From Candidatus Amesbacteria bacterium GW2011_GWC1_47_15 (GTDB lineage Bacteria > Patescibacteriota > Microgenomatia > CAZETR01 > Amesbacteraceae): 41,203 nucleotides of DNA. The translations under genes and the position numbers were made by a program. Where the stretch lies: assembly GCA_001001375.1 (NCBI GenBank), contig LCNU01000008.1:1-41203 (forward strand). The letters run 5' to 3'. Within the stretch, counting starts at the first letter, position 1. Every line of letters starts with the position of its first letter. Positions 10,417 through 13,897 of this stretch are shown one piece after another. The notes under the pieces were generated by a model. It saw nothing but the letters and a program-made list of their open reading frames with translations. It was not told where the DNA came from and did no database searches.

Positions 10417-11361
10417 ATGCTGATCGATGAAGTAGAAATAACAATCAAGGCAGGGCATGGCGGACCGGGGATGTCTTCATTTGGCGGACACGGCCCGGAC
10501 GGAGGCAACGGAGGAAAGGGGGGGGATGTGTATATTTCCGTCACATCCGACCTGAGGGCACTTAACCAATTTTCGGCGGAAAAAAATATCTCTGCTGAAA
10601 ACGGAAAGGCGGGCGGCAAAAATAGGGCTGACGGCAAAAACGGAAGAGATACGGAATTGGAATTGCCTCTGGGAAGCGTACTTGCAGATAAAGCATCCAG
10701 AGAAGAAATAGAACTTACGGACCTGCAGACTAAAATCCTGATCTGCAAAGGAGGACTGGGGGGGAAAGGAAACTGGGAATTTAAATCCGGGAAAAAACGC
10801 TCCCCTACTTATGCACAGCCAGGCCTGACAGGTGAGAATAAAAAATTTAATATCGTACTTAAATACCTGGCTGATTTCGGACTGATCGGCTTGCCCAATG
10901 CCGGGAAAAGCAGCCTCTTAAACCAGCTAACGAACGCGCGGGCAGAAGTGGGGGCATACCCATTTACCACGTTGGAGGCGAATCTCGGTGTGTTGGAGGG
11001 AAAAATTATCGCCGATATCCCCGGTTTGATCGCCGGTGCATCCGCCGGGAAAGGGCTGGGGATAAAATTTCTTAAACATATTGAAAAAGTAAAACTACTG
11101 CTGCATTGCATAGCTGCTGATTCGGAAAATATCGAGAATGATTATCACACCATCAATAAGGAACTGGCTTCTTTCAGTCCCGACCTGGCGAGCAAACCAC
11201 AGGCGATTCTGCTGACAAAGACAGATCTTCTGAATCCCGAGCAGACCGCTTCCCAGAAAAAACTGCTGGAACAGTTTAATCATCCGATACACGAAGTCTC
11301 AATTTATATGCCGGAAAGCATTAAGTTACTTAAGAAATATATTTTGGAAAGAGAATTTTAA
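10417..11361 (+). CDS. obgE: Obg family GTPase, short form without C-terminal domain
   Basis: This is a ribosome-associated GTPase involved in large-subunit maturation. The glycine-rich Obg fold spans about 1-155 (GHGGPGMSSFGGHGPDGGNGGKGG). The G domain follows with P-loop GLPNAGKSS, switch I region YPFTT, G3 DIPGLI and G4 TKTD (Thr in place of the usual Asn of NKxD). At 314 aa it lacks the C-terminal OCT/TGS-type domain that brings other Obg proteins to about 390-430 aa, and it ends shortly after the G domain. Upstream is a -10 with 7-nt spacing, so obg is probably transcribed on its own or with weak read-through from 10154. Confidence 0.93.
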   Translation: MLIDEVEITIKAGHGGPGMSSFGGHGPDGGNGGKGGDVYISVTSDLRALNQFSAEKNISAENGKAGGKNRADGKNGRDTELELPLGSVLADKASREEIELTDLQTKILICKGGLGGKGNWEFKSGKKRSPTYAQPGLTGENKKFNIVLKYLADFGLIGLPNAGKSSLLNQLTNARAEVGAYPFTTLEANLGVLEGKIIADIPGLIAGASAGKGLGIKFLKHIEKVKLLLHCIAADSENIENDYHTINKELASFSPDLASKPQAILLTKTDLLNPEQTASQKKLLEQFNHPIHEVSIYMPESIKLLKKYILEREF

Positions 11362-11949: not shown

Positions 11950-12573
11950 TTAGACGCTGTTTTTGGTTTTTTGCCCTAACAATTTATTCAGATCTTTTGC
12001 GGCATCGTTATCCATAAACTGGGACCACCACCATTCGTTGGGGTGGCTGTCTTTTAAAGACAGCGCCAGTTTTTTGGCCGAGGCGGTAAACATGCCGGGA
12101 ACACGATCATTGAAATCCGAATCGAACCACATCTTTGCAAGCTTGTTCCCCTGCCAATAAAGCACCCATTCCGTATATATCTGCTGAAGACTGTCTGCAT
12201 CTTTCACACAGCGGGAAACGGGGGTAACCCTGGCTTCGTATTCTTCTATAAGTTTCCCCAGATCCGACCCGAAGTCTAAACCTGAAAACTGATCTTTGAC
12301 CGCACGAGTATCGTCCTGGGTAACGTAATGCTTTTCGATGAAATTTGCGTCACCGGAACGGGCTTCCGCCAGGTCGTGAAATACGGCCATGGTAACGGCT
12401 TTTTGAGCATCCGCATCCGAAAAACTCTCCATGCGACAAAGGCAATAAGCGATAACTGCGGTCTGGTGGCTATGCGAAGCTACATTATCGTAGGAGGATC
12501 CTAATTGTTTCAGAGACCGCCTGATATTGAAGAGCATTCCGGACTGCTGGATGAGGTAAAGAACTTTTTTCAT
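11950..12573 (-). CDS. HD-domain phosphohydrolase (HDDC2/YfbR-like)
   Basis: The ORF track starts at 12660, but the promoter geometry and family N-terminus favour ATG 12573 (207 aa, MKKVLYLIQQSGMLFNIRRS). The HD metal-site series is visible: SHSHQTAVIAY, FHDLAEARSGD (HD followed by E) and VKDADSLQQ (the distal Asp). These order and spacing features match the HD_3/HDDC2 group, whose characterised members are 5'-deoxynucleotidases. The substrate here is inferred from family only. It is divergent from the bpsA-like gene, and the two start codons are only 21 bp apart across a shared symmetric -10. Confidence 0.8.
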   Translation of the reverse strand: MKKVLYLIQQSGMLFNIRRSLKQLGSSYDNVASHSHQTAVIAYCLCRMESFSDADAQKAVTMAVFHDLAEARSGDANFIEKHYVTQDDTRAVKDQFSGLDFGSDLGKLIEEYEARVTPVSRCVKDADSLQQIYTEWVLYWQGNKLAKMWFDSDFNDRVPGMFTASAKKLALSLKDSHPNEWWWSQFMDNDAAKDLNKLLGQKTKNSV

Positions 12574-12594: not shown

Positions 12595-13575
12595 ATGCAT
12601 GCAGACATAAAGCAGATACAAGCCGAAATTTCGCGAGCCGCGGAAAAAACCGGGATCCATGCCGGGAAAATATATGATTTTTTGTATTACCTGAAAGACG
12701 GACCTATCGAAAACAACCTGCTTTTGGCCAAGACAGGTATTGCGAAAAATGCATTGAACTTATTAAAATCAGAATTAGCCGGGTGGCTATCGCCGGCCGG
12801 GGCAAAAACCGGACTTGGAGTAAAAGGGAAGGAAGTACTTGCGACAGCTGAAATTAAAACCGCCACTGAAAACATGCATGATTTCCTTAAAGAGACGGAA
12901 AGCTACAAAAACGCCATTGCCTTGCTTTTGAAGTACAAAAATTTACGGGTAACTCCCAAAAGGGAATATGATCAGTTTAACGCCACGCCAGAGTCGACAG
13001 CCCTGCGATGTGCCCTCCTGGAGTTTGTGGGAGATATACAGGGAAAAAGATTGCTGTTCTTGGGCGACGACGACTTTACCAGCGTGAGCCTGGCGGTGAC
13101 TCATAGTCCGGGACGGATACAGGTACTGGATATCGACGAAGATATTATGAAAAACCTAAGTAAAATTGCCAAAGAGGAAACACTACAAATATCGGCGGAA
13201 AGATATGACGCCAGAAACACACTGCCTAAAAGATATGTCGGATCTTTTGATACTGTATTTACGGACCCGCCATATACAACAGCCGGCATTTCCCTGTTTT
13301 TGTCCCGGGCAGTGGACGCGCTCGACCGGAGCAATAAATCTGCCAGAATATATCTGTGCTACGGAAACAGCGACTTGGCCAAAGAAAGATTTTTGCCTAT
13401 ATATGAAGCGATTATCCGGTCCGGGCTGATGCTGCGCTGGGTATTTGACAAATTTAACCGCTATAGCGGAGCTGAGGCAATAGGAAGTGCGAGTACGTTA
13501 TTTATCTGTGAGACCACCCCGAAAACAAAACCGTTAATCAAAGGAGAATATGCAGAAAACATCTTCACTGCCTGA
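12595..13575 (+). CDS. bpsA: BpsA-like N4-bis(aminopropyl)spermidine synthase (branched-chain polyamine synthase)
   Basis: The start is moved from 12505 to ATG 12595 because TATAAT ends 6 nt before it (326 aa). The N-terminal part (about 1-90) looks like a winged-helix region. The C-terminal part is a Rossmann-type aminopropyltransferase of the BpsA (former DUF43) family, with LFLGDDDFTS (GDDD at 157-160), the next acidic strand QVLDIDED, and FTDPPYT (Asp224). Known members in thermophiles add two aminopropyl groups from decarboxylated S-adenosylmethionine to one nitrogen of spermidine. The overlapping speD-like gene would supply that donor. No spermidine synthase is present in the window, so spermidine may be taken up. 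Substrate preference is inferred. Confidence 0.83.
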   Translation: MHADIKQIQAEISRAAEKTGIHAGKIYDFLYYLKDGPIENNLLLAKTGIAKNALNLLKSELAGWLSPAGAKTGLGVKGKEVLATAEIKTATENMHDFLKETESYKNAIALLLKYKNLRVTPKREYDQFNATPESTALRCALLEFVGDIQGKRLLFLGDDDFTSVSLAVTHSPGRIQVLDIDEDIMKNLSKIAKEETLQISAERYDARNTLPKRYVGSFDTVFTDPPYTTAGISLFLSRAVDALDRSNKSARIYLCYGNSDLAKERFLPIYEAIIRSGLMLRWVFDKFNRYSGAEAIGSASTLFICETTPKTKPLIKGEYAENIFTA

Positions 13576-13897
13576 TAAGCCGTTTACCCAACATTTTGTA
13601 ATCTGGGTATATAAACCCAAGGTCATGCCCAAAACTGAAACGGAAGTTGTTTATTTGCTTTCTGAACTATGCAGACGATTAAACCTGACCCTGATAAGCA
13701 CGGTGGTTAATTTGTTTTCACCGCACGGAATAACGGCTGCGGCAATACTTTCCCAGTCCCACTTGGTAATTCATACTTGGCCGGAGCGGGAATACCTGCG
13801 AGTGGATCTGGTAATATGCGTGAATCAGGAACACGACACAGTAGAACGAGAACTGAGTATAATATTTGAGCCGGAGATGATTATGGTAACCGCCTAA
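13550..13897 (+). CDS. speD: SpeD-like S-adenosylmethionine decarboxylase proenzyme
   Basis: This is a 115-aa pyruvoyl-enzyme precursor of the short prokaryotic AdoMet decarboxylase type. The signature SQSHLVIHTWPE gives Ser70 (future pyruvoyl group) and His75, and Cys90 sits in VDLVIC. The Ser-His-Cys spacing of 5 and 15 is the same as in known SpeD enzymes (63/68/83 in Thermotoga). The residue before the cleavage Ser is Gln69, where most members have Glu. The gene overlaps the end of bpsA by 26 nt, and AGGAG is placed 3 nt before its ATG. The likely product is decarboxylated AdoMet for BpsA. Some SpeD homologues have become arginine or ornithine decarboxylases, so the substrate should not be taken as settled. 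Confidence 0.85.
   Translation: MQKTSSLPDKPFTQHFVIWVYKPKVMPKTETEVVYLLSELCRRLNLTLISTVVNLFSPHGITAAAILSQSHLVIHTWPEREYLRVDLVICVNQEHDTVERELSIIFEPEMIMVTA

Follow-up and report, generated by a model that had tools for sequence, protein, structure and literature searches.

What do two overlapping genes, one encoding a protein of the branched-polyamine synthase (BpsA) family and the other a relative of the AdoMet decarboxylase SpeD, accomplish together in a bacterium with a small genome? The genes are located in a 41,203-nucleotide stretch of contig LCNU01000008.1 from Candidatus Amesbacteria bacterium GW2011_GWC1_47_15, the whole of which is referred to here as the window. A sequence-only reading had taken the pair for a branched polyamine operon that might indicate a hot habitat. 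The bpsA-like gene (plus strand, 12595..13575, 326 amino acids; PF01861, DPPYT subfamily) is followed by the speD-like gene (plus strand, 13550..13897, 115 amino acids; PF02675, class 1b), and the 26-nucleotide overlap noticed in that reading is exact (plus strand, 13550..13575, frame +1) and is kept in relatives. A putative ribosome-binding site of speD, AAAGGAGA (plus strand, 13540..13547), can be recognized in the sequence within bpsA, upstream of the ATG at 13550. A longer version of the synthase starting with a TTG at 12505 was dropped; the ATG at 12595 agrees with the start in relatives. Upstream of the pair lie obgE (10417-11361) and, in divergent orientation, an HD-domain gene (11950-12573); downstream is a convergent HlyD-like gene. 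With these neighbors, the pair is a unit of its own. No Rfam elements were found across the operon, and a promoter scan produced only weak matches (6 against 3.2 expected).

So is the synthase a BpsA? Both family assignments stand: the synthase scores 150.5 bits against Pfam BpsA_C (PF01861, DUF43; cut-off 27) and SpeD scores 61.9 bits against AdoMet_dc (PF02675; cut-off 25). A phmmer search with the synthase retrieves the PDB entries 6j28/6j27 (E 3e-25) and 5xnc (E 1e-23), and its AlphaFold model (pLDDT 90.4), in which an N-terminal helical region, winged-helix-like by inspection, is joined to a Rossmann aminopropyl/methyltransferase domain, has 5xnc as the top fold match (E 6e-23) and the rRNA m6A methyltransferase METTL5 as the second best. 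With the characterized N4-bis(aminopropyl)spermidine synthases of T. kodakarensis (Tk-BpsA, 5xnc) and T. thermophilus (Tt-BpsA, 6j28), the window synthase shares the full-length fold, membership in PF01861 and, by alignment, the GDDD motif (residues 157-160; plus strand, 13063..13074), the aspartate of the DPP motif (Asp225 in Tk-BpsA) and Tyr290. Asp159 and Asp160 of the GDDD motif are equivalent to the residues that, in Tk-BpsA, hold the aminopropyl group of decarboxylated AdoMet (dcAdoMet) (PMC12979288). In several other respects, however, the protein departs from these enzymes (EC 2.5.1.128). The DPPET of Tk-BpsA and the DPVEG of Tt-BpsA align with DPPYT (residues 224-228; plus strand, 13264..13278), the position of Glu259 is not clearly acidic, and the C-terminus, ...GEYAENIFTA, is devoid of the cluster of acidic carriers (Glu339-Glu345 in Tk-BpsA) to which a review attributes the carrying of the aminopropyl group in Tk-BpsA (PMC12979288). 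The cluster is not conserved in the relatives either, and the synthase of locus L079, where SpeD is intact, has no acidic residue among its last 12. Archaeal and Firmicutes members end with a zinc-ribbon-like CxxC...CxxC tail that the CPR members lack. Linkage or fusion to SpeD, a mesophilic-looking host and a separate place in the tree complete the list of differences. To our knowledge, no DPPYT-type protein has a known enzymatic activity.

In the synthase tree, which is unrooted and excludes the GDDD columns, one clade (support 99/95) unites Tk-BpsA and Tt-BpsA with the DPPET paralogues of Methanothermococcus; the window synthase falls outside it, in another clade (100/98), and the union of these two clades in a single group is rejected by the AU test (p-AU 0.029). 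Phylogeny had been named beforehand as the test of the 'branched polyamine operon', and its outcome, along with the DPPYT motif and the absence of the acidic carriers, counts against that label. The DPPYT type is not a single clade in the unrooted tree, where the canonical group adjoins the methanogen DPPYT copies. Methanothermococcus, a thermophilic methanogen, possesses both DPPET and DPPYT paralogues (L116, L119), and the presence of the two types within one methanogen suggests that they have different jobs. Judged by its sequence, the window synthase is a DPPYT-type paralogue, not CHARACTERISED BpsA. With this position in the tree, this motif and no acidic carriers, an aminopropyltransferase-like action is still likely, whereas the identity of a branched-polyamine synthase is not supported. 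Elsewhere in the family, one CPR genome (G186) carries three PF01861 genes (L012, 1138-2307, and two more), of which one, with a DPTPT motif, falls in the canonical BpsA clade. Actinobacterial DUF43 proteins of 510-673 amino acids are lengthened by a long extension at the C-terminus, and their GDDD motif is replaced by GDHD (L127, L129, L130, L133-L135, L140, L141, L143-L145, L147, L148); the extension of L129, the sole actinobacterial one scanned, has no Pfam match.

Is the second protein, then, an AdoMet decarboxylase? Its score against the NCBIfam AdoMetDC equivalog TIGR03330, 60.1 bits, is below the cut-off of 75.65, and its PDB matches are 2iii (E 2e-9) and 1tlu (E 3e-9). The predicted self-cleavage site, Gln69-Ser70 (plus strand, 13754..13759), aligns with Glu62-Ser63 of T. 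maritima SpeD, which makes Ser70 the predicted pyruvoyl precursor. The triad is intact in the alignment (Ser70, His75 and Cys90, corresponding to T. maritima Ser63, His68 and Cys83), and Phe49, Trp70, Pro71 and Glu72 (T. maritima numbering) are present as well, the same residues as in the class 1b enzymes of T. maritima (1tlu) and A. aeolicus (2iii); the roles of the triad residues in cleavage and catalysis follow PMC10407285. Unlike these enzymes, the window SpeD is shorter, has Gln (mostly Asn in the fusions) for Glu before the cleavage Ser, and is partnered with a BpsA-like protein rather than with SpeE. Its branch is long, 1.59 against a median of 0.29. The linked CPR SpeDs, operon and fused types together, comprise one supported clade (41 rows, 99/92) in which the processing triad, Phe49, Trp70, Pro71 and Glu72 are kept with few exceptions and several members have Glu62; a separate clade of unlinked CPR SpeDs mostly has Phe70 and often misses Phe49 or Glu72. 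In the model of a fused protein, the SpeD domain matches T. maritima SpeD (1vr7/1tlu) at 2.2 A over 106 columns.

How general is the pairing? PF01861 proteins above the cut-off are found in 29 of the 380 genomes of the phylum, and among the 79 named loci of a species collection, an intact speD adjoins the synthase gene in 33 and is fused with it into a single protein in 16. Fifteen of the fused proteins are from Patescibacteria, mostly WWE3, and one is from Lokiarchaeota, with at least three independent origins of the fusion (the WWE3-type clade, Shapirobacteria L096 and Lokiarchaeota L146). In L091, the sister of the fused L096, the genes overlap by 1 nucleotide, and several other Shapirobacteria have an overlap of 8 nucleotides; 14 further loci of the Microgenomates type show overlaps of 20-32 nucleotides with the reading frames offset in the same way, so the one in the window is not due to chance. 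Adjacent pairs are present also in Bathyarchaeota, Heimdallarchaeota and Lentibacillus. In the nearest relative, L070, speD is truncated. For the gene pairs with measurable dS, dN/dS is 0.06-0.24 for both genes, indicative of purifying selection. The bpsA-speD pair is old and selected. In one Shapirobacteria locus, an AdoMet synthetase gene (PF01941, 276 bits) lies 427 nucleotides downstream of the pair. Four loci (L070, L077, L080 and L084) have folE, queD, queE-like and queC genes downstream of the pair and co-directional with it, and three of them (L070, L077 and L084) have a carbamoyltransferase gene farther along.

A precedent is provided by SpeD-SpeE operons and fusions, in which the donor-making and donor-using enzymes are likewise co-produced, but here the donor is used by a BpsA-type transferase, and the characterized enzymes of this type follow a ping-pong mechanism, unlike SpeE. 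Fusions of SpeD1 with SpeD2 are also described (PMC10407285). The donor-maker and donor-user logic proposed in the sequence-only reading is reinforced by the recurrent fusions. A search of largely open-access literature found no paper that deals with a SpeD-BpsA pairing or reports branched polyamines from CPR.

The genome (52 contigs totalling 914 kb; completeness 88%) belongs to a Microgenomates/CPR lineage near Ca. Amesbacteria, a CPR origin having been considered in the sequence-only reading, and the bacterium is probably host-dependent. The closest synthase is that of Ca. Amesbacteria RBG_19FT_COMBO_48_16 (61%); the synthase of L008, from genome G013, which belongs to the same family as the window, is identical to that of L070. 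The suggestion of a hot habitat receives no support. Thermophile 16S genes usually have a G+C content near or above 60%, whereas the 16S gene on contig C4 has 53.5%, which fits a mesophile, and the pair-bearing relatives include Lentibacillus, MAGs whose titles point to groundwater or aquifers, and others. Unlike the C4 copy, another 16S-like match (G000:C21:3836-6040, L011) is divergent, has 43% G+C and contains an insertion of several hundred bases; it possibly lies on a contig of foreign origin or is a gene with an intron.

Where could the substrates come from? All absences from this 88% complete MAG are provisional. Beyond the locus, where speE had already been noted as missing, the genome yielded no SpeE with the GGGDGG motif: the only PF01564 match is weak and has GGGGY instead. 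The protein in question (G000:C19, L009 646-2181) has 511 residues and combines a multi-membrane part with a spermidine-synthase-like domain without the catalytic motif, and proteins resembling it occur in other CPR genomes. No GGGDGG SpeE was seen among the PF01564 matches that were read in the BpsA-bearing CPR genomes, where weak matches of about 230 amino acids have LGLGGG and miss the catalytic Asp. A profile search limited to the PLP-dependent ornithine/arginine decarboxylases of PF02784, as distinct from the OKR-type PF01276, found none in the genome, and a genome-wide search detected neither type of MetK (PF02773, PF01941). Supply of AdoMet by MetK was rejected: PF02773 is found in 152 of the 380 phylum genomes and in 0 of the 29 that carry BpsA (a hypergeometric value of 2e-7 that takes no account of ancestry, many of the 29 being WWE3), and the archaeal-type PF01941 in 2 of 34. 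Since none of the searched families for synthesis of AdoMet, putrescine and spermidine was detected, AdoMet and the acceptor are probably imported, in keeping with the dependence on outside precursors suspected earlier.

Does the synthase itself reveal its donor? With Actinobacteria excluded, Asp159 is kept in all 65 rows from SpeD-bearing genomes and lost in 6 of the 10 rows without an intact SpeD (Gly in L074 and L105, Tyr in L112, Ala in L088 and L003, Ser in L131), being kept in the other 4; Fisher's test gives p 1e-6, uncorrected for ancestry, and once ancestry is taken into account, only some 3 independent pairs show a difference (median p of 0.25 in a sign test). Remnants of speD are detectable in L072 and L082 by tblastn and in L074 by eye. 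Actinobacterial relatives have His159 with or without SpeD, which is absent from 9 of 13 of their genomes and coexists with His159 in the other 4. The tracking of Asp159 loss with SpeD absence is suggestive of dcAdoMet as the donor, and, with so few independent events under ancestry correction, suggestive is the appropriate word.

Taken together, we favor, with moderate confidence, the view that the pair is a module for the production and use of dcAdoMet, in which SpeD makes the donor by decarboxylating AdoMet and the BpsA-like partner passes its aminopropyl group on to an acceptor. Going by its residues and linkage, SpeD would cleave itself to form the pyruvoyl group and then decarboxylate AdoMet; the BpsA-like enzyme, as homology and residue covariation suggest, would bind dcAdoMet via GDDD, aminopropylate an amine and release methylthioadenosine; and the overlap, or the fusion in relatives, would hold the two enzymes together at a fixed ratio. 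The likeliest acceptor is a scavenged polyamine, a branched product not being implied. Under this scheme, the partner would supply the missing consumer of dcAdoMet, where PMC10407285 takes a SpeD without SpeE as a sign of new function.

Could the product be a branched polyamine after all? The synthase would then be a true branched-chain polyamine synthase that, with SpeD as the source of the donor, converts imported spermidine to N4-aminopropylated spermidines. This is what the shared fold and Pfam family and the retained GDDD, DPP aspartate and Tyr290 would lead one to expect, but it sits poorly with the placement outside the characterized clade, with DPPYT in place of DPPET or DPVEG, with a position 259 that is not clearly acidic, and with the missing C-terminal carriers, of which L079 lacks any trace in the last 12 residues despite its intact SpeD. 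Separate jobs are also suggested by the two methanogen paralogues (L116, L119), and according to a 2026 review (PMC12979288), BpsA is restricted to thermophiles. We consider a branched product unlikely. Another idea is that the target of the BpsA-like enzyme is not a polyamine but a nucleobase, RNA or some other molecule, with either dcAdoMet or AdoMet as the donor. It draws on the resemblance of DPPYT to DPPY, the target-base motif of amino-methyltransferases, on METTL5 as the next-best fold, on the zinc-ribbon-like tail of the archaeal and Firmicutes members and on the folE-queD-queE-queC genes that follow the pair. Yet the tail is wanting in CPR members, the preQ0 genes accompany the pair in four loci only and not in the window, and there is no sign of nucleic-acid binding, which leaves modification of this kind quite improbable in our estimate.

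The remaining alternative shifts the novelty to SpeD, which would be a neofunctionalized ornithine or arginine decarboxylase (SpeDC/SpeDA) yielding putrescine or agmatine, the BpsA-like enzyme using AdoMet itself. In PMC10407285, a SpeD homologue without SpeE, as in this CPR genome, is a flag for such enzymes, which occur in CPR, and Gln, found before the cleavage Ser in the window, is one of the four ODC-diagnostic residues given there (Gln, Thr, Phe, Tyr), its position being matched from the text only. As far as the positions can be matched in this way, though, the window SpeD has Trp70 and not the diagnostic Phe; equivalents of both Pro51 and Pro71 are present, the AdoMetDC-diagnostic Pro (gamma) being likewise placed from the text alone. 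The linked SpeDs also differ from the described SpeDC/SpeDA, to the extent that these can be compared, in residues and clade: Phe49, Pro71 and Glu72 are kept, the clade is apart from the Phe70 group, and Glu62 is present in several linked relatives. The residue pattern of the partner, a BpsA-fold enzyme that retains Asp159 and is fused to SpeD in relatives, points to dcAdoMet. A switch of SpeD to ornithine or arginine thus appears very unlikely to us.

If the dcAdoMet module is real, a SpeD-coupled BpsA-like system in small, mesophilic-looking genomes, where searches for the polyamine and AdoMet synthesis families came back empty, would imply either a polyamine-type product or a dcAdoMet-dependent modification that is new, and would offer an alternative to ornithine/arginine decarboxylation for some speD genes without SpeE. 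The natural fusions present a single expressible enzyme with both predicted activities, and the Asp159 pattern translates into a sharp prediction on donor choice. The spread of the pair and its frequent fusion could not be seen from a single window. A bolder proposition, which we offer tentatively and regard as doubtful, is that the DPPYT proteins are a distinct, unrecognized class of dcAdoMet-dependent aminopropyltransferases, present in CPR and in Asgard and Bathyarchaeota archaea and repeatedly fused to their own AdoMet decarboxylase, and that their target is not N4 of spermidine but, for instance, another polyamine, RNA or a nucleobase, or a metabolite of the 7-deazaguanine type. Among the archaeal members, L102 (4686-6341) and similar Bathyarchaeota synthases are BpsA-like proteins with a C-terminal zinc-ribbon-like stretch and a GNAT acetyltransferase domain. 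All 12 BpsA-linked SpeDs of Bathyarchaeota and Heimdallarchaeota (L099, L102, L103, L104, L106, L108, L113, L114, L115, L122, L123, L136) have Thr at the pyruvoyl-forming Ser63 (ETH, not ESH), which, if processed, would give a 2-oxobutanoyl rather than a pyruvoyl group.
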